A stretch of DNA of 64,000 nucleotides from Salinibacter grassmerensis (lineage in GTDB: Bacteria > Bacteroidota > Rhodothermia > Rhodothermales > Salinibacteraceae). Made by a program: the position numbers and the translations under genes. The stretch is taken from positions 248,001 through 312,000 of the forward strand of contig NZ_CAMTTF010000003.1 in NCBI RefSeq assembly GCF_947077765.1, given 5' to 3'. Within the stretch, counting starts at the first letter, position 1; every line of letters begins with the position of its first letter. Of the stretch, positions 48,940 to 58,644 are shown piece by piece. The notes under the pieces were generated by a model. That model made no database searches, had not been told where the DNA came from, and worked only from the letters and a program-made list of their open reading frames with translations.

Positions 48940-50010
48940 ACCCATCGGCTCTTGTATTGGACCGCTGCGTCGGGGAATGCGGCGGGTATCGGCGTTCTGG
49001 TCGGCCATTACAATGGCTTCGAGTATGCCCAGCAGCCTGGGGGGACTCACATCGCCGCAGAGGCATACCCGCACATCGCCGAAAGACGTCCGGAACGGAC
49101 GGGGCCGTCTCTGCCACGGCTGAAGACTCCGGGGCCCACTGGTGTTCTGATCCAGGGGCTTCTTGCGAGAAGGAAGGACGCAGGACCAGTCTGAAGGGCC
49201 CGCTTCCTCAACGGGTTTGCTGACGGGGTCATCGAAGACGGAAAACTACACCAAGTTCAACAGGGACTTCGGCACGGTCTGATCTGACTCAGTCGACCGC
49301 AACCCATCCCTGCGACGGTTTTCCCACCTGGCCTACGCAGTAGCGACGGGCGGTGGGGCCGTGCCGGACGGTCTATCAGTTCCGGTTGTCTCAGGCCCTG
49401 CCGGCGGCGAGTGCCAGGCGCTGTCTAGCGCGACCAACCAGGTTCTTTCTACATACGGTCCTTCGTTCTGCTTGGGGCAGGCTGGACGTCGGTTCAGCCT
49501 GTCTCTGGTGGACCCGACCGCTGGCAAGAACGAGCGGGAGGGTCGCTTCAATGCCGTCGGCAGCATCTGAATGAGCCCGCGGTGCATGTGGCCTTGTGTC
49601 TGAGCCGGCGTGTGTCTGAGCCAGTGTGAACCGAGTGATTGCACCCCGAGGAGTAAAGAAACTACAGGTCGGCCATGGATGTCAGCGACCTCAAGAATCC
49701 AGGCCTTAGAACATGGGCGGGAATCCAACATGGCGCGATTCTTGACCAAAGTACAATATCAGTCGTGCACCCGGGCAACCGCCGCAGGGTTTGCTACGCC
49801 CCAAGTTTGACTTTAGGGATGGGCACAAGCGAGCCGGATTGAGTGTGGAGGCGGAATGCCCACTGGTTAGGGAGCCGACAGTCCCTCTCTTCTCGATCGC
49901 TGGCTTTTCGAGGACAGCGTCCTCGTCTCTCCGGTGAGCGACGGCCGGTCTCTTGAACATCGCCATTTCTAGTCTCAACCGTGTTTCCTTTTCGAAACCC
50001 GTTTCGCGCC
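48940..50010. other. Gene-poor stretch of ~1.07 kb
   Basis: No supported gene was found here. Short open frames exist on both strands, but none shows a signal peptide, motif or family pattern. There is a 16-nt-period tandem repeat of TGTGTCTGAGCC at 49595-49622. The stretch may be decayed sequence or a long 5' region of the lipoprotein gene. No tRNA, rRNA or IS ends were seen. Confidence 0.6.
49595..49622. repeat. Direct repeat TGTGTCTGAGCC
   Basis: TGTGTCTGAGCC occurs twice at 49595-49606 and 49611-49622 with a 16-nt period, inside the gene-poor stretch. Confidence 0.55.
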
Positions 50011-51963
50011 ATGTCCGCTTCTCAACCCAACTGGTGGCCCGCCACACTGTCCGCGCTTGTTCTTGCGATGCTGGTGGGGTGCGACGTGCCCACGGGGGAT
50101 CCTTCGCCGTCCATCAACACCGACACGGAAATTAGCACGCCCCTCGTGCAGGAAAAGACCTTCTCGTTTCTCGGCGGGCCGGCCAGTGAATTCGACCCTC
50201 TGATCGACACCACGTCGTCGGACTTCGATTCCCTCTTCACGGTTGATGGGGAGGGCGACATCTCAGTCGTACAGGACATTGACGACTTCGAAATCGGAGA
50301 TCTGAACGGGGCCCTGGACAACGCCACCGGCGGCCTCACCTTCGACCAGGAGAGTTTCGAAAAGGAGCTCATTAATCTGCAAGAGGAAGAGGAAGTAAGT
50401 GCGTTCCCGGGTGAGCAACGGATCGGGGACCTCAACGTGAAACTGCAGAGATCTGCGACGGCCGATATTCCGGTGCGCGGAGATAACAGAGTCGCCTTCG
50501 ACACGACGCAAAACGATTATGTAGAGCTCGGCAATACAAAGATTGGGGTGCAGAACGTCACGATTTCCCCGAACGCCACAGAGGCTGTTTTCGACAGCCT
50601 TCGGTTCACATACCCCGACATCCGCGTCGAGCCGTACGGCGAGGGCAACCAGCTCGTCGTCGAATTTGTCGAGGATCCCTGCGGAGAAGACCCCTGCGGC
50701 AGTAATGGAGAGTACGAGCGGGACATAAGCAAGTTAGGGGCAGGTTTTGACATCGACCTTGACGGCGCGCGAGTATACCCAAACAAGCCGAAAATTACTG
50801 AAAGTGGGACAGTAACCTTTCGTATAGGCGGCCAAGTAAACCCCGATCTTCAAATAGAAGACGACGATAAGATCTCCTTCGGGGCATCGACGTCACTCGA
50901 CGATTTTAAGATCCGAGAGATCGATGTCGGTGCGGCGAAGCCGTTCACGGTGGCGGTCACACCGAATCCAAACGGCGGAGACATCAACATCGCCAACGAC
51001 AGCGAAGTGCGCACGGCGGCCTTCGACGGGTTCGAGGGCATTACTGGTCGGGTAGACGGCCTCAATCTGGCGGACGTAGGCCTTAACTTTCAGGTCGAGA
51101 CCAAAAATCTCGCGTCGACCGACGCTCAGTTGTACGCGGCGATTCAGGGGGCAAACGAGACGGATCAGATTTTTCTTGGCGGCACAGAGGACCGGGACGT
51201 CTCCTCCCTACCCTTTTCAGCTGACTTTACGGAAAACGGCTCCCTCATTCGAAATGAGTCGCTCATCAAACTGGGCATCGAGCGGGAGGATGACCCTTTG
51301 GACGAAACGGCGCAAACGTCACTCGTGGTGGACGGGGACAATTCGAATGTAGCGGACTTCGTCAATGCACTCCCGACGGAGGTCCGCCTGGCCGGACAGG
51401 CCGAGATCAACACGGATGAGGGCGACCTGCAGGTTCGAAAGCCCATCTCGCTCGATGCGACCTTTTCGCTCAACATCCCCCTCCGCATCAAGGACCGGTT
51501 CGTCGTGCGGGACACCATCGATGCGGACCTGTCCGACCTCGACGACCTGACCGACCCGGAGGAAGACGTGAACATTTCCACGGCGGAGCTGCAGTTCAGC
51601 TACACGAACGGCCTTCCCCTTGGGGCAGACGTGAAGATGGTTATTGTCGACGCCGCGGGCTCGGTGATTGAAACGTTCAACGACGGGTTCGAAAACGACG
51701 ACTTTCGAATCGAGCCGGCCGCGAAGAACGAAGACGGAGCGGCGGCGAGTTCATCGTCGGGCACCTTTGTTTTCACCCTCGGCAACAGCCAGGAGGACCT
51801 GCAGGCACTGTCCGACGGCGACAAGATCCGGCTCGCCCTCAACATGGATCAGGAGGGATCGGGAGGGGGCACGGCGGCCGTGGCGCGCCTCCGGGCCGAC
51901 GATCAGCTGATCCTCGATCGCGTCCGCCTCGAGGCCGACGCTTCCGTTCAAACCGGCAACTAA
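50011..51963 (+). CDS. Large lipoprotein of unknown function
   Basis: This 650-residue exported lipoprotein opens with a signal ending at the lipobox LVGC (C24). The mature part is very acidic and beta-rich, with repeated strand pairs such as RVDGLNLADVGLNFQVETKN. Long runs match no enzyme motif. It may be a surface-exposed or periplasmic structural protein. An in-frame GTG 30 nt upstream is a second possible start; the ATG at 50011 is preferred because it gives a standard lipoprotein signal. It is followed 64 nt later by a DUF5723 outer-membrane protein, suggesting a two-gene unit. Confidence 0.85.
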   Translation: MSASQPNWWPATLSALVLAMLVGCDVPTGDPSPSINTDTEISTPLVQEKTFSFLGGPASEFDPLIDTTSSDFDSLFTVDGEGDISVVQDIDDFEIGDLNGALDNATGGLTFDQESFEKELINLQEEEEVSAFPGEQRIGDLNVKLQRSATADIPVRGDNRVAFDTTQNDYVELGNTKIGVQNVTISPNATEAVFDSLRFTYPDIRVEPYGEGNQLVVEFVEDPCGEDPCGSNGEYERDISKLGAGFDIDLDGARVYPNKPKITESGTVTFRIGGQVNPDLQIEDDDKISFGASTSLDDFKIREIDVGAAKPFTVAVTPNPNGGDINIANDSEVRTAAFDGFEGITGRVDGLNLADVGLNFQVETKNLASTDAQLYAAIQGANETDQIFLGGTEDRDVSSLPFSADFTENGSLIRNESLIKLGIEREDDPLDETAQTSLVVDGDNSNVADFVNALPTEVRLAGQAEINTDEGDLQVRKPISLDATFSLNIPLRIKDRFVVRDTIDADLSDLDDLTDPEEDVNISTAELQFSYTNGLPLGADVKMVIVDAAGSVIETFNDGFENDDFRIEPAAKNEDGAAASSSSGTFVFTLGNSQEDLQALSDGDKIRLALNMDQEGSGGGTAAVARLRADDQLILDRVRLEADASVQTGN

Positions 51964-52027
51964 GCCTCAGAGGCCTCTACCCCCGCTGCACCGCCACCTC
52001 CCTTTCCCGACAAATCAGGCTGGACAG

Positions 52028-53470
52028 ATGACGCCCCACACCTTTGTTCTCCGCCCGGCTTTTCTTGCTCTTTTTCTCTCGGGCCTTCTGGCCCTCACGC
52101 CCGGAGCTGTCCACGGCCAGTCCGGCATGCGCAGCGTGCAAGCCGTGAGCACGGGCGGGGGCACGTCCGTTTTTGACACGGGCCCGGCCGCCCTCTACTC
52201 CAATCCCGCCAACCTCACGGTTGGGCCGGAGGACCATTCCCTCGAAATTCAACTGTTTCGCGTCGGGGCCTACCACGGAGGGGACTTCTACCAGTTTGAG
52301 CACATTGACCCCCTCTTCTACAACAACGAGACCGCCCTCTCCAACGACGAGCAAAAGGCCGTCCTCGATGACTGGTTCGGAAGTGATCAGCGGACGGCAA
52401 GTACGTACCTGGAAGTGATCCCGCTGTCGATTACCCATCGCCCCAGCGACGCCCCCTGGGCGGTCGGCTTCGGCATTCGGGGACGCGCTTTTCAGACCTC
52501 CGCCGTCAACAAGGGAATTTTTGACGTGCTACTCCGGGGGACGGGTGAGGACCGAACCGTCCCTGTCGACGGGCGCAGCCGAGCATACGCTACCGTGGAC
52601 GTTGCCGGGGCCTTTAGTTACCGGTTCTCGTCGGTTCCCTTGTCGGTGGGCGTCTCTCCCCGCGTTATTTTCGGAACGGCCTTCTCGGACGCTGCGCTCA
52701 ACTCGCAGGCGACCGTGAGTGGCGACTCCCTGGTTCATCGGTTCGACTACACGGCCCGTGCGGCAGGCCCGCTGAGCACCGGCCTGTTCGACACGTTCAA
52801 CGCCTTCAACGACGATCCGGTGGATGACGTCGTGGGCGGATCGTCCGGCATTGCGGGGATCGGGGGCGGCCTCGACCTTGGGGCGACCTACACGGTGCGG
52901 CCGGGCCTGCTCGTTTCGGCGAGCATCACGGACCTGGGCCGAATTACCTGGACCCAAGATGCCCAGACGGTCACGCCCTCCAAGGATGTCTTTCGGTTTG
53001 AGGGCGTGTCGCTGGACTTTGACCGGATCGATGAGGAGTACGACGGCGCAACGGGGGAGTACATCGAGGATCAGGTCGATAGTCTTGCTCAAGACGCCTA
53101 CGAGGACGTGGACCGCGACCGCTCGTCATTCTCGACCGGCCTCCCCACCACGCTGCACCTGAACAGTACGTGGGACAAAGGCATCGTTACCCTGAATGGG
53201 GGAGCGTCGATCGGGCTCAATAAGGACGCTGGGGCCGTGCCGAGCCCGGCGGCCGTTCACGTAGGGGGGACGCTCAACCTGGGTCCCGTCCCCATCCGTG
53301 CTGGCGCCCGTTTCTTTGGCACACAGGCCGTCGCCCTGTCCGGGGGCTTCGGGCTAGACCTCGGGTTTTACCGGTTCGACCTGGGCATGAGCATCACGCC
53401 CTCCACCTCCACGCTCGGCAGCGGCGCGCGCTACGCAGTGAGTCTCTCGTTGGCGACGATCCGGTTTTAG
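52028..53470 (+). CDS. DUF5723-type outer-membrane protein
   Basis: This 480-residue protein has a signal peptide (FLALFLSGLLALTPGAVHGQ). The mature protein has AVSTGGGTSVFDTGPAALYSNPANLTV, the hallmark start of this Bacteroidetes family, followed by beta-barrel-like strands through to a C-terminal ARYAVSLSLATIRF with an aromatic end residue. Family knowledge: outer-membrane proteins of unknown role found next to lipoproteins. It closely follows the lipoprotein gene, which suggests they act together in the outer membrane. Confidence 0.86.
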   Translation: MTPHTFVLRPAFLALFLSGLLALTPGAVHGQSGMRSVQAVSTGGGTSVFDTGPAALYSNPANLTVGPEDHSLEIQLFRVGAYHGGDFYQFEHIDPLFYNNETALSNDEQKAVLDDWFGSDQRTASTYLEVIPLSITHRPSDAPWAVGFGIRGRAFQTSAVNKGIFDVLLRGTGEDRTVPVDGRSRAYATVDVAGAFSYRFSSVPLSVGVSPRVIFGTAFSDAALNSQATVSGDSLVHRFDYTARAAGPLSTGLFDTFNAFNDDPVDDVVGGSSGIAGIGGGLDLGATYTVRPGLLVSASITDLGRITWTQDAQTVTPSKDVFRFEGVSLDFDRIDEEYDGATGEYIEDQVDSLAQDAYEDVDRDRSSFSTGLPTTLHLNSTWDKGIVTLNGGASIGLNKDAGAVPSPAAVHVGGTLNLGPVPIRAGARFFGTQAVALSGGFGLDLGFYRFDLGMSITPSTSTLGSGARYAVSLSLATIRF

Positions 53471-54005
53471 AAGTTGGAGAGTGCCCCCCACAAGCGGAGC
53501 GCACACATTCCCCGTCCCCAGCACGGCCAAAACAGTCCTACGGGGCCGGTCGTAGACTCAACGCTGCTGCGTCGAAGATAGCCGGCAAGTTACCCCTACC
53601 CGCCGAGACGTCTGTTTGGCAAACGCAAACGGGAATCGTCCCTCCAGCCTGGACCGGCGGTCCAAAGCACCCACGGCCCGCTCGCGAACCGTCTTGACTC
53701 GTGGTGCGCTGTCCCCCGCCTGCGCCTGGCCGAGCTCGACTCAATGTCATCTCGTCAGGCCCGGACGCCCCCCACAAATGTCTTCGCATCGTCCCCGATG
53801 GCATCGGGAAGATGCCCCTCTCACGGGGAGACGTGGGGATCCCAAGTCCTTGGATTTCGTCTCTCTACCGGTGAGACGCAAAGATTTTGGAGAGAGGCCC
53901 TCACCTTGGAACGGCCCCCTCCATCCTCGGCGTTGAGGTTTTTGGTCCTGGGCCTCGTTGCCCCCGCCGAGTCTCGTCTCCGCTGCTGCTCAGCCGTCTG
54001 CCAAC
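53471..54005. other. 535-nt intergenic region before the ABC cassette
   Basis: No gene was supported here. Two inverted repeats are present: CTACG/CGTAG at 53538-53555, extended by AGT/ACT, which may end the DUF5723 transcript; and CCCGATG/CATCGGG at 53794-53808. The promoter for the ABC cassette is expected in the right half. Confidence 0.5.
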
Positions 54006-54722
54006 ATGCCCGACGCCTCGTCGCCCCTCGTTCAGCTCGACGCCCTCACGAAGACCTACCGCGAGGGGGAGCAAGACCGTACGGTACTCCGAGAGGTCTC
54101 GTTGGGGCTGGAACGGGGGGACTTCTCGGTACTCATGGGACGGAGCGGGGCTGGGAAGAGCACGCTTCTCAACCTAATTAGCGGCATCGACCAGCCCACG
54201 TCCGGCCGCGTTCAGATTGGCGACACCGACCTCACGGGCAAGTCCGAGACGGAACGCACGCGCTTTCGTCGGTCCCACGTGGGGTTCGTGTTTCAGTCGT
54301 TCAACCTGATCTCGACCCTGACGGTCGGGGAGAACGTGCGCTTGCCCCTGGAGCTGGCCGGCAAAGCGCCCCGGACCACTAAGGACCGGGCCGGTGCGAT
54401 GCTGGATCGGGTCGGGCTGGTGGACCGGGCCGATCAGTTTCCAGACCGCCTCTCCGGTGGGGAGCAACAGCGGGTGGCCGTCGCCCGGGCCCTGGCCCAC
54501 GAGCCCCTCCTCGTCCTCGCCGACGAACCGACGGGCAACCTGGACTACGACACCGGGCAGGCGGTGCTCACCCTACTCAGCGATCTCGTGACCGATACCG
54601 ATACCACCCTCCTCGTGGCCACGCACGACCCGGAGGTGCTCCCCCGTGCCGACCGGGTGTTGCACCTCCACGGAGGCACCCTGCACGAAGAGGTGCCCGA
54701 ATACATCACATCGGGGCCGTAA
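54006..54722 (+). CDS. ABC transporter ATP-binding protein (LolD/MacB type)
   Basis: This 238-residue ATPase has Walker [11 protein letters not shown] at 44-53, the signature [17 protein letters not shown], Walker [18 protein letters not shown] and [15 protein letters not shown]. It belongs to the LolD/MacB/FtsE branch that works with FtsX-type permeases in mechanotransmission rather than substrate passage through the membrane. The partner permease follows 96 nt later. The ATG at 54006 is favoured over a longer frame starting 48 nt earlier. Confidence 0.94.
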
Positions 54723-54818
54723 TTCGAACGCAGTCGGATCGTGGACGGAGGACATCGGCTCCGTTCAGAACCCCGCGGTTGTCCCTGTCTCTCTCACTTT
54801 TCTCTTTTGCCCGCCTCG

Positions 54819-57362
54819 ATGACACTTCTTCGCCGCTCAAGCCGGCGCTACCTCACCCGCCACCCGTGGCTCATGGGCCTGTCGGTGCTGGGGGTCGCGA
54901 TTGGGGTGGCGGTGGTGGTGGCGATCGACCTCGCCAATACGAGCGCGAGTCGGGCGTTCGAGCTGTCCGCCGAGACCGTCACCGGCGCCGCGACGCACCA
55001 GGTCGTGGGGGCCGGCGGGGCGCTCGACGACGATGTGTACCGGCGCCTCCGGGAGGCCGGCATTCGTCCGGCCGCCCCCGTCGTGGAGGGCTACGGCTCC
55101 CTCGAGCAAGGGGACCGCACGTTTCAGATCGTCGGGATCGATCCGCTCGCCGACGCGCCCTTCCGGCCCTATCTCGGAACCGGGGCCGGTAGCGACCTGG
55201 ACCTGGGGACCTTCATGACGGAGGACGTGGCCCTTATGAGTGCCCCCACGGCCGAGGCGATTGGGCTCTCGTCCGGCGACACCCTACGCGTGGGGATCGA
55301 GGGCACGACCCAGCCGGTGGTCCTCAGCGGTCTTATCTCACCACAGAACGAACGGACCCGTCGGGCGGTGGCCAATTTGCTGGTCGTGGACGTATCGACC
55401 GCCCAACGGCTCTTCGACCAGTCCGGCCAGTTGAGTCGGATCGACCTGCTCACCCCCTCAGGCACGGCGGCCCAGCAGGCCTACCTCAGTCGGGTGCGCA
55501 CCTCCCTCCCGGACGGGGTCCAACTGCGGCGCTCGGACACCCGGACGGAGACCGTAGCCCAGATGACGAAGGCGTTCGACCTCAACCTGACGGCGCTGAG
55601 CCTGCTGGCCCTCATCGTGGGCGCGTTCCTCATCTACAACACAATGACCTTTTCGGTCGTCCAGCGCCGCGCCCTGATTGGGCAGCTGCGGGCCTTGGGG
55701 GTGACGCGTGGAGAAGTCTTTCGGCTCGTACTGGGGGAGGCTGCCGTGCTGGGCGTGGTGGGCAGTGGGCTCGGCCTTCTGCTCGGCATCGTGCTGGCGT
55801 CCGGCCTGGTGCAGCTTCTGGCGCAAACGATCAATGACCTCTACTTCGTGGTGGAGGTGAGCGAGCTGTCGGTCTCAACGTGGACGCTGGCGAAGGGGGC
55901 GCTCTTGGGGATCGGCACCACGCTGGTCGCCGCCTTGGCCCCGGCCCAGGAGGCCACCGCCGCCTCGGTGAGTACTGTCCTGCGCCGCTCGACCCGGGAG
56001 AGCACCCTGCGTCGACGGGCGCCCTGGTGGGCCGGACTCGGTCTCCTTGTCGCCGCGGCCGGCAGCCTGCTGCTCTTGGTCACCGAACAGAGCATCTGGG
56101 CCGGGTACGGGGCACTGTTCTGCGTCCTCGTCGGCGCGGCATTCATGATTCCGTGGGCCGTGGTGGGGCTGTCGAATGGGGTGCGTCCCCTCCTCGGGCG
56201 AGCGGCCGGCGTCATCGGGCGCATGGCGTCCCGCGGCGTGGTGACGAACCTGAGCCGCACCGGCGTCGCGATTGCCGCCCTCACCATCGCCATCGCCTCC
56301 ACCGTGGGCGTCGGCGTGATGATCGACAGCTTCCGCGGCACGGTCACCAGCTGGCTGGAGCAGTCGCTGCAGGCAGACGTCTACGTGCAGCCGCCAAGCC
56401 TCGTCTTTCGCCGCTCCACCGCCACGATCGACTCCACCGTCGCGCGCCGCCTGCGGAACGTGGAGGGCGTCAAGGGGGCCTACTCGGTCCGCCGCGTGAC
56501 CGTGCGGGCCGACGTGGGGCGCACGGACCTCGTGGCCGTGGAGCCCGGCCCCCAGACCGCCGATGTTTACCAGCTCAAGGCCGGAAACGCCGACTCGGCG
56601 TGGGAGGCGGTCCGGTCGGGGCCCTCCGTGCTCGTCTCTGAGCCCTACAGCTACCGCCACGACGTGGGCGTGGGCGATACCTTGCGCCTCCAGACAGATC
56701 GGGGGCGACAGGCGTTCGCCATCGAAGGGGTGTATTACGACTACGGCTCCGACCTCGGGGTTACCCTCATGAGCCGATCGACCTACGAGCAGTTCTACGA
56801 CGACCGCGGCGTGTCCGGCCTGGCGTTCGCGGCCGCCGACGATGTCTCCGTCGACGCACTCATCGCGGACATGCGTTCTTCCGTGTCGGGGCTTCAGGAC
56901 GTGCTCATCCGGTCGAACCGGGCCCTGCGCGAGACGTCGATGCGCGTCTTTGACCGCACGTTTACCATTACGACGGTGCTGCGGCTGCTCGCCATTGCCG
57001 TGGCGTTCATTGGGGTGCTCACGGCCCTCATGGCCCTGGCCCTGGAACGGCGACGGGAGATGGGCGTGCTGCGGGCCACCGGGATGACGCCGCCCCAGGT
57101 GGGCGGCTACTTGACCCTTCAGTCGAGCCTGATGGGCGCGATCGCCGGCCTCCTGTCGCTCCCGCTGGGCTACGTCCTGGCCTACGTGCTGGTCTTCGTC
57201 ATCAACAAGCGCTCCTTCGGGTGGACGCTCCAGCTCACGGTGCCGACCGACGTCCTGATCCAATCGCTCGTGCTGGCGGTCGTGGCCGCCTTCCTGGCGG
57301 GCCTCTACCCGACGTGGCGGATGGCGCGGTCGAGCCCCGCACTCGCGCTACAGGACGAGTAG
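54819..57362 (+). CDS. FtsX-like ABC permease
   Basis: This 847-residue permease has an N-terminal membrane helix (LMGLSVLGVAIGVAVVVAI), a large periplasmic MacB-like domain to about residue 250, an FtsX core of three helices with LNLTALSLLALIVGAFLIYNT, a second periplasmic domain, and a C-terminal FtsX core with FTITTVLRLLAIAVAFIGVLTALMALALERRREMGVLRATGMTPPQVG. The two FtsX halves make it a self-contained permease. It pairs with the ATPase gene upstream and an AttH-type secreted protein gene downstream. The start is ATG 54819. Confidence 0.93.
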   Translation: MTLLRRSSRRYLTRHPWLMGLSVLGVAIGVAVVVAIDLANTSASRAFELSAETVTGAATHQVVGAGGALDDDVYRRLREAGIRPAAPVVEGYGSLEQGDRTFQIVGIDPLADAPFRPYLGTGAGSDLDLGTFMTEDVALMSAPTAEAIGLSSGDTLRVGIEGTTQPVVLSGLISPQNERTRRAVANLLVVDVSTAQRLFDQSGQLSRIDLLTPSGTAAQQAYLSRVRTSLPDGVQLRRSDTRTETVAQMTKAFDLNLTALSLLALIVGAFLIYNTMTFSVVQRRALIGQLRALGVTRGEVFRLVLGEAAVLGVVGSGLGLLLGIVLASGLVQLLAQTINDLYFVVEVSELSVSTWTLAKGALLGIGTTLVAALAPAQEATAASVSTVLRRSTRESTLRRRAPWWAGLGLLVAAAGSLLLLVTEQSIWAGYGALFCVLVGAAFMIPWAVVGLSNGVRPLLGRAAGVIGRMASRGVVTNLSRTGVAIAALTIAIASTVGVGVMIDSFRGTVTSWLEQSLQADVYVQPPSLVFRRSTATIDSTVARRLRNVEGVKGAYSVRRVTVRADVGRTDLVAVEPGPQTADVYQLKAGNADSAWEAVRSGPSVLVSEPYSYRHDVGVGDTLRLQTDRGRQAFAIEGVYYDYGSDLGVTLMSRSTYEQFYDDRGVSGLAFAAADDVSVDALIADMRSSVSGLQDVLIRSNRALRETSMRVFDRTFTITTVLRLLAIAVAFIGVLTALMALALERRREMGVLRATGMTPPQVGGYLTLQSSLMGAIAGLLSLPLGYVLAYVLVFVINKRSFGWTLQLTVPTDVLIQSLVLAVVAAFLAGLYPTWRMARSSPALALQDE

Positions 57363-57474
57363 CGGATTGGGCGGAGCAGAGAAGTTGCCAAACTGTCCGC
57401 CACGAAGAACTCCCGTTTGCCTTGGTCCCGCGCCGTTGCCACGGCGCCTCCCTCTCTCACCGTGCACGCTTGCC

Positions 57475-58644
57475 ATGTCACGTTCCTTGTCGCTGATTTC
57501 GGGTCTGGTTGCACTGATCGCCCTCCTCGGCCTTGGGGCCTACTGGCTTACGGCTTCGCCCGGCGAGGCCGACCTCCAGACATCGGTCTCCGTGTCGGAG
57601 GCGATGGCCGGCGACACCACCGGCTACCGGCGGGCCACAGCGCCCCGGGCGTTCTCGTTTCCGGACGACTACGGCCCGCATCCGGGCTACAAGACGGAGT
57701 GGTGGTACGTGACCGGCACGCTGAACGGCCCGGACGCGCAGCCCTACGGCTACGAACTTACGATCTTCCGGACCGGGCTCACGCCCCCGGACGAGGCGCC
57801 TACTGCGCCCGCGGCCGGCTGGCGCACAAACCAGCTCTACCTGGCGCACTTCGCCGTCACCGACGGGGCGAACGAGACATTTCACGCCTTCGAACGGTTT
57901 CAGCGGGGCGGTGCCGGGCTCGCGGGGGCGCAATCGACTCCGTTTCGGGTCTGGCTCGACGACTGGTCGATGACCGGCCCCGACTCGTCAGCATTCCCGC
58001 TCCGACTGCGGGCTCAGCAGGCGGGCATCGGGGTCGATCTTGCCCTCCGCCCCACCAAGCCGCGCGTGCTCCAGGGCGACCGGGGCCTGAGCCAGAAGGG
58101 GCCGGGGAGCGGCAATGCGTCGTACTACTACTCGTACACGCGCCTGGCCACCGAGGGCACGCTCGTCCTGTCGGGCGACACGCTGTCCGTGACCGGCGAC
58201 AGCTGGATGGACCGGGAGTGGAGCACCTCGGCCCTCGGCCCCGACCAGGAGGGCTGGGATTGGTTCTCGCTCCAGCTCGACGACGGGCGGGACCTTATGT
58301 ATTACCAACTCCGTCGGACGGACGGCGCCCCGAGCCGCTTCAGCGAAGGGGTGATCGTGGGGCCGGACGGCGCAACCCAGAGGCTGGACCACTCGGAGGT
58401 CTCTGTGGAGGTCCTCGACACCTGGACGAGCCCGGACGGCACGCACACCTATCCTGTGGACTGGACCCTGCGCGTACCCGACGAGGACATCGACCTGCGG
58501 ATTACGCCCCTGTTTCCGGACCAGGAGCTTGACGTGTCCGTCCGCTACTGGGAAGGATTTGTTCAGGTAAAGGGCTCCGCGACCGGCCGTGGGTACGTAG
58601 AGATGACGGGATACGGAGACAGCCCCGGGTCCCCCGTCTCGTAG
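57475..58644 (+). CDS. AttH/CrtC-like lipocalin-fold secreted hydrolase-like protein
   Basis: This 389-residue protein has an N-terminal signal/anchor helix (LISGLVALIALLGLGAYWL). Its core matches the COG5621/CrtC family: HPGYKTEWWYVTGTLNG near residue 64, the middle LAHFAVTD, SYYYSYTRLATEGTL, and SWMDREWSTSALGPDQEGWDWFSLQL. Related proteins include carotenoid 1,2-hydratase and AttH. The enzymatic activity is not proven. It completes the ATPase-permease-AttH cassette, all on the same strand with short gaps. Confidence 0.9.
   Translation: MSRSLSLISGLVALIALLGLGAYWLTASPGEADLQTSVSVSEAMAGDTTGYRRATAPRAFSFPDDYGPHPGYKTEWWYVTGTLNGPDAQPYGYELTIFRTGLTPPDEAPTAPAAGWRTNQLYLAHFAVTDGANETFHAFERFQRGGAGLAGAQSTPFRVWLDDWSMTGPDSSAFPLRLRAQQAGIGVDLALRPTKPRVLQGDRGLSQKGPGSGNASYYYSYTRLATEGTLVLSGDTLSVTGDSWMDREWSTSALGPDQEGWDWFSLQLDDGRDLMYYQLRRTDGAPSRFSEGVIVGPDGATQRLDHSEVSVEVLDTWTSPDGTHTYPVDWTLRVPDEDIDLRITPLFPDQELDVSVRYWEGFVQVKGSATGRGYVEMTGYGDSPGSPVS

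Follow-up and report, generated by a model that had tools for sequence, protein, structure and literature searches.

The 64,000-nucleotide (nt) stretch of Salinibacter grassmerensis DNA analysed here (contig NZ_CAMTTF010000003.1, positions 248,001 to 312,000; hereafter the window) carries, side by side on the forward strand, a gene for a large lipoprotein and a gene for a DUF5723 (PF18990) protein. The pairing of the two genes is well supported, and their conserved adjacency, together with their joint presence and absence across genomes, points at the level of sequence comparison to an undescribed two-part outer-membrane complex. Channels for hydrophobic compounds were the best-known FadL-type barrels until BamG and PorV, in which the fold is reused as a docking base for surface proteins. 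If our reading is true, the lipoprotein-DUF5723 operon, distinct from BamG-BamH and coexisting in one genome with a BamH homologue, would add another use of the FadL fold; DUF5723 would gain a fold assignment and a partner, and a direct co-purification test of the two proteins becomes possible. A full-text literature search (DUF5723, PF18990, DUF4621, PF15414, BDI_1231, 4H3W), whose coverage leaves out most subscription papers, returned no paper on the pair and none with DUF5723 or PF18990, in keeping with the original prediction, made from the letters of the window, that the system is uncharacterised. The pair is laid out as follows.

50011..51963, + strand: lipoprotein gene; ATG at 50011, stop at 51961-51963, 650 amino acids; homologues in 17 of 41 genomes (own included)
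51964..52027, + strand: intergenic spacer of 64 nt, with no terminator-like or promoter-like site listed inside
52028..53470, + strand: DUF5723 (PF18990) gene for a predicted FadL-type outer-membrane barrel (Pfam match and model); ATG at 52028, 480 amino acids

Conservation of the pair

We compared the window's own genome with 12 genomes of the same genus, 12 of the same family and 16 of the same order (41 in all), using alignments of 17 DUF5723 rows (A1) and 16 lipoprotein rows (A2) and two wide profiles, of 38 lipoproteins (A3) and 31 barrels (A4). First searches found the lipoprotein in 16 of these genomes and the DUF5723 protein in 17; the A3 profile recovered the missing lipoprotein partner, in G039, as a fragment at a contig end. 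With the A3 search included, both genes are present in 17 of the 41 genomes and neither in 24, and the coordinates place the two genes next to each other in all 17 carriers. The DUF5723 match is strong in the same 17 genomes (E 1.3e-66 or better); we take the remaining, weak A4 matches, none better than E 2e-8, to be other FadL-type barrels. At the genus level the pair occurs in 9 of 13 genomes, and both genes are absent from G001, G004, G011 and G012.

Joint occurrence extends further. In a 148-genome phylum sample the lipoprotein profile matches 48 genomes and the barrel profile 88; all lipoprotein-positive genomes except one are also barrel-positive (47/48), and that exception, G073, showed a weak barrel match on closer look. 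Where genomes of the same class have a lipoprotein match, the barrel lies directly downstream (20/20). Among 32 more distant loci, picked for a match to either profile, the lipoprotein precedes the barrel in 22 (the L132 barrel being truncated where its contig stops) and the order is reversed in one; three of the partners counted here, the L134 and L139 barrels and the L140 lipoprotein, have weak matches (E 5e-5 to 2e-4), and the doubtful L141, with a weak lipoprotein-profile match (E 4.8e-6), was excluded from A3. A list of 28 loci, which takes in only loci matched by both profiles and includes relatives counted already (L062 and L063), has the genes adjacent in every case, 27 with the lipoprotein first, 12 with a 4-nt overlap and one, L138, reversed. 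A scan of named records gave 42 loci: 30 titled Ignavibacteria, Ignavibacteriae, Melioribacter, Stygiobacter or similar, 8 ‘Bacteroidetes bacterium’, 2 ‘Chlorobiota bacterium’, 1 Candidatus Kapaibacterium and 1 unplaced. A lipoprotein of the family lies upstream in 41 of them, within 82 nt of the start of the match in 40 and about 530 nt away in L266; in the remaining locus, L252, merely 342 bases precede the barrel match. These sets of genomes and loci overlap in part, for example named-record loci with phylum loci.

The original prediction had proposed a two-gene envelope unit here and had named, as evidence that would count against it, the genes being rarely neighbours in relatives. They proved to be neighbours in 17 of 17 carriers, 20 of 20 same-class genomes and 41 of 42 named-record loci, and this, together with their joint absence from the other 24 of the 41 genomes, bears out a unit of that kind.

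Both open reading frames were found on the forward strand where the same prediction had placed them, with the 64-nt gap between them. They are real rather than chance frames: four other members of the genus have near full-length homologues, at 72-78% identity for the lipoprotein and 82-91% for the DUF5723 protein. The exact start of the lipoprotein is uncertain because a GTG at 49981, 30 nt upstream of the ATG, is also open and would give an N-terminus with arginines. A scan for promoters and terminators returned 1 and 6 sites, respectively, where shuffled sequences averaged 0.7 and 4.6.

The barrel

The DUF5723 call of the original prediction was confirmed, PF18990 being the sole Pfam match of the downstream protein (residues 96-383, E 2.5e-27, 97 bits against a curated cut-off of 26.8). 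The same model matches 30 of the 31 A4 members at E up to 0.1, and four A4 members also match TraF_2 (best E 1.7e-7). Two features precede the matched region.

52028..52117, + strand: predicted signal peptide, residues 1-30, with mature N-terminus Q31 (script site rule; Q31 invariant in the 17 A1 rows)
52118..52210, + strand: short N-terminal tail and hatch ending in NPA (residues 59-61); N59 is mature residue 29, and N59-P60-A61 are invariant in A1

An AlphaFold2 model of the barrel (predicted local distance difference test, pLDDT, 78.6; predicted template modelling score, pTM, 0.75) was compared over residues 30-480 with PDB structures. The top match is TodX (6z38; Z 28.8, 330 residues aligned, root mean square deviation (rmsd) 4.4), and TbuX (Z 28.5), CymD (28.5), Escherichia coli FadL entries (24.6-27.6), PorV (25.7) and BamG (21.0-22.2) come before the next barrels at 16.7. 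A PDB profile search with the barrel family gave, at low significance, TbuX (4.9e-4), TodX (1.5e-3) and PorV (2.4e-3); BamG chains are not among the PDB profile matches of A1 or A4. On the strength of the fold matches, the PDB profile matches and the invariant NPA hatch motif, the window's DUF5723 protein is, by its modelled fold, a FadL-superfamily barrel. From the predicted cleavage site to NPA the mature tail has 29 residues, which is also the median over 39 of 41 DUF5723 proteins.

The lipoprotein

The upstream protein has no match in Pfam, NCBIfam or a phmmer search of the PDB and so remains, as had been claimed, of unknown family. Four parts of it can be described.

50011..50082, + strand: signal peptide to lipobox Cys24 (LVGC, residues 21-24), with a hydrophobic stretch; the Cys is invariant in the 16 A2 and 38 A3 rows
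50080..50250, + strand: conserved segment at the mature N-terminus, residues 24-80, putatively docking on the barrel; holds 9 of the 19 invariant A2 columns
50347..50484, + strand: junction, about residues 113-158, site of about 260 extra residues in long relatives
51583..51960, + strand: C-terminal domain (about residues 525-650) bearing an N-x-LP motif; in long relatives a block nearer the N-terminus is related to it (hhalign 90.5)

A lipobox-like Cys is present in 101 of 102 members of the family. The accessible text of PMC12578637 takes at least two acidic residues among the first six after the Cys as a criterion for surface lipoproteins; the window copy has two, and 41 of the 101 lipobox-bearing members have at least two. 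The description of the lipoprotein as acidic also holds (aspartate plus glutamate 19.2%, lysine plus arginine 6.6%; aspartate plus glutamate 7.3-16.1% in six other window proteins). Among the printed relatives, the acidic share ranges from 11.3 to 19.3% within the genus and from 9.1 to 16.0% in other genera; since acidity varies within the family, it is probably no mark of function.

Residues 24-80 reach 2.8-3.0 bits each, above the mean of 2.37, and conservation is equally high near residues 201-220 and 501-540. Long lipoproteins (911-1005 amino acids as read) contain a domain in at least two copies, blocks 330-460 and 810-930 (hhalign probability 90.5); a third copy is possible (52.5). The window's clade lacks about 260 residues, extra upstream copies of the repeat domain, that the long relatives carry; since three genus members and other genera have long forms, the difference is read as a loss in the window's clade. 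G008 has a different short form of 595 amino acids (L059, 6119-7906), and the loss of lipoprotein domains seems to have happened more than once within the genus.

The C-terminal stretch of the family aligns with the DUF4621 secreted protein BDI_1231 (PDB 4h3w) at E 1.1e-5 and hhalign probability 87.4 over 75 columns. This likeness is partial and at profile level only: the window lipoprotein has no Pfam match to PF15414. A scan for PF15414 matched 0 of 198 phylum genomes and 0 of 14 controls.

Comparison with BamG-BamH and other systems

The accessible text of PMC12611786 and PMC12578637 (2025) describes a Bacteroidota β-barrel assembly machinery (BAM) complex whose FadL-type barrel, BamG, holds the surface lipoprotein BamH. 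BamG is described there as having an N-terminal tail some 10-12 residues longer than that of FadL, which passes the lateral gate. The available part of PMC12578637 also places a second pair, BamG2-BamH2, in a putative operon of Bacteroides thetaiotaomicron and identifies 9HJM as the Porphyromonas gingivalis complex. Like BamG-BamH, the window pair combines a predicted FadL-type 14-stranded barrel with a large lipoprotein that has a conserved N-terminus. The original prediction had held that no known system matches, and this part did not survive: the barrel has the FadL fold, and a FadL-type barrel with a lipoprotein is the BamG-BamH arrangement as those sources give it.

The two pairs nevertheless differ. 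Of the BamG-BamH structures (PDB 9HJM, 9HJ3 and 9N2D), 9HJM has a chain G that is named a DUF4270 protein, is taken to be BamH and is found at 3.2e-14 by A5, a profile of DUF4270 proteins from the same order. A5 matches 40 of the 41 genomes; 11 of the 40 supplied its rows, and the window's own genome is one of the remainder. The Pfam model PF14092 (DUF4270) had no match in the 13 genomes of the window's genus, and the suggestion that the genus lacks BamH was overturned by this lineage profile. In 43 other genomes PF14092 matched 11, a sparse result that we do not use because the Pfam model misses divergent homologues. The window lipoprotein was rejected as BamH: it has no Pfam match, and A3 against A5 gives an hhalign probability of 12.5 over 12 columns at the lipobox. 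The own genome encodes a divergent DUF4270 (BamH-type) lipoprotein elsewhere (L188, 1381-2862; G000:C7:79899-81146; A5 E 3.5e-79), beside a gene that we take to be glycogen-synthase-like.

The own genome also holds two Toluene_X (PF03349) proteins, with N-terminal tails, from predicted cleavage sites, of 33 residues (FadL-length) and 41 residues (the length expected of BamG). The latter (L238, 1366-2964; G000:C2) has a tail 12 residues longer than that of the window barrel and is a BamG candidate only; it had 0 matches in a PDB sequence search, and its hhalign probability against A4 is 5.2 (49.0 for the own FadL). The window barrel, with its tail of 29 residues against 41, was rejected as BamG. 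Near-universal presence in the group would be expected of BamG; the window pair is patchy (weaker FadL-type matches uncounted). By these comparisons the pair coexists in the genome with a separate BamH homologue and is different from BamG-BamH. On another contig (L237, 1333-4225; G000:C4) a FadL (PF03349) gene overlaps a lipoprotein-like open reading frame, another pair of FadL-type barrel and lipoprotein; the start of that frame presumably holds a GDSL-like motif.

The channels FadL, TodX and TbuX share with the window barrel the NPA hatch and an N-terminal tail about as short as FadL's, and are its best fold matches, but sequence similarity to them is at profile level only (E 5e-4 to 3e-3), and the window barrel has a regular lipoprotein neighbour and no catabolic neighbours in the loci compared. 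PorV, the carrier barrel of type 9 secretion (6h3i, 8gl6), has a FadL-type fold and a weak profile match; unlike PorV, the window barrel is paired with a lipoprotein and shows no sign of type 9 cargo. SusC is a TonB-dependent receptor and SusD its lipoprotein lid. The notion of a barrel served by its own lipoprotein lid is common to SusC-SusD and the window pair, although the window barrel has the FadL fold, unlike SusC.

Proposed function

That the two proteins form a physical complex is quite likely. The fuller reading, in which they make an accessory outer-membrane complex with a role in transport, the FadL-type barrel being the conduit and the lipoprotein its dedicated lid or receptor, is tentative and falls somewhat short of probable. 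Both genes would form one operon for this one complex. The DUF5723 protein would be a 14-stranded FadL-type barrel that binds or transports a putative hydrophobic ligand, serving as its conduit through an open lateral gate. The lipoprotein would be lipid-anchored beside the barrel and dock on it through its conserved N-terminal segment, and its chain of beta-sandwich-like domains would sit above the barrel, a lid or receptor comparable to SusD on SusC or BamH on BamG.

Several observations weigh against this reading. In the phylum sample 41 of the 148 genomes match the barrel profile without a lipoprotein match, and some of these matches are probably to other FadL-type barrels. The 32 distant loci include five with the barrel and three with the lipoprotein for which no partner was detected nearby, so the two genes are not strictly tied to each other. 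In the loci compared, neighbours vary by lineage, and none for catabolism or uptake stands consistently beside the pair. PorV and BamG have the same fold, and the fold alone therefore does not show transport. The barrel model was built on 17 sequences, and the signal-peptide rule behind the tail lengths is our own script, which misplaces some sites (range 2-40). The window lipoprotein model is poor (pLDDT 50.9); a fold search with it gave 4h3w at best (Z 9.9 at rmsd 10.3) and others at Z 7.8 or below, and no fold is claimed.

The barrels and lipoproteins with no partner detected nearby also speak for two functionally separate envelope proteins that share an operon for co-expression only, an explanation that we consider improbable given that the genes are present together and absent together in changing neighbourhoods. 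A less remote alternative, still unlikely, is a BamG-BamH-like assembly module in which the pair docks on BamA, or on a different insertase, and offers an alternative extracellular canopy under which particular outer-membrane clients fold. The shared architecture and the second pair with its putative operon, as given in the accessible text of PMC12611786 and PMC12578637, would suit such a module, as would the place of BamG among the fold matches (Z 21-22); the missing tail extension, the lack of profile similarity to DUF4270 and the presence of the pair in 17 genomes where the BamH profile finds 40 do not. We prefer transport over a BAM role because the N-terminal tail is FadL-like, channels head the fold matches and many genomes lack the pair.

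PorV, which appears among both fold and profile matches, suggests yet another role, with the barrel as surface carrier of a secreted or lipidated protein and the lipoprotein as its resident cargo or anchor, possibly served by type 9 secretion; a Por_Secre_tail protein adjoins the pair in L119. The lipoprotein has a lipobox, no Pfam sorting domain is listed for the window copy or the 38 A3 members, and PorV scores no better than FadL or TodX, all of which leaves this the most doubtful of the explanations. A broader conjecture, which we hold to be rather unlikely, treats the pairs as a second class of machine made of a FadL barrel and a lipoprotein, running parallel to BamG-BamH. Its range would extend from the order and class of the window as far as Ignavibacteria and Kapabacteria, and it would build, export or insert one particular surface component without depending on the core BAM canopy.

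Neighbouring genes

Upstream of the pair the window encodes a phosphoribosyltransferase, which we take to be pyrR-like, and an aspartate/ornithine carbamoyltransferase; downstream lie an FtsX/MacB-type ABC transporter and a CrtC lipocalin protein. With no neighbour seen to be common to all loci, the pair itself is favoured as the unit. The downstream genes, for an ABC ATPase, an FtsX/MacB-type permease and a CrtC/Lipocalin_9 protein, stand in a row at 53958-58644, 487 nt past the pair, and the row is matched in four of eight other loci of the genus, some of these loci stopping short. Five other genera in the order (L050, L052, L054, L057 and L058, among 12 same-order loci compared) have the pair divergent from genes for a DUF4783 protein and a large sensor histidine kinase, the kinase having 1393-1447 amino acids in four of the five. 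An LptF/LptG-like gene is common to 7 of 31 distant loci and lies tail-to-tail with the pair in L124 and L119.

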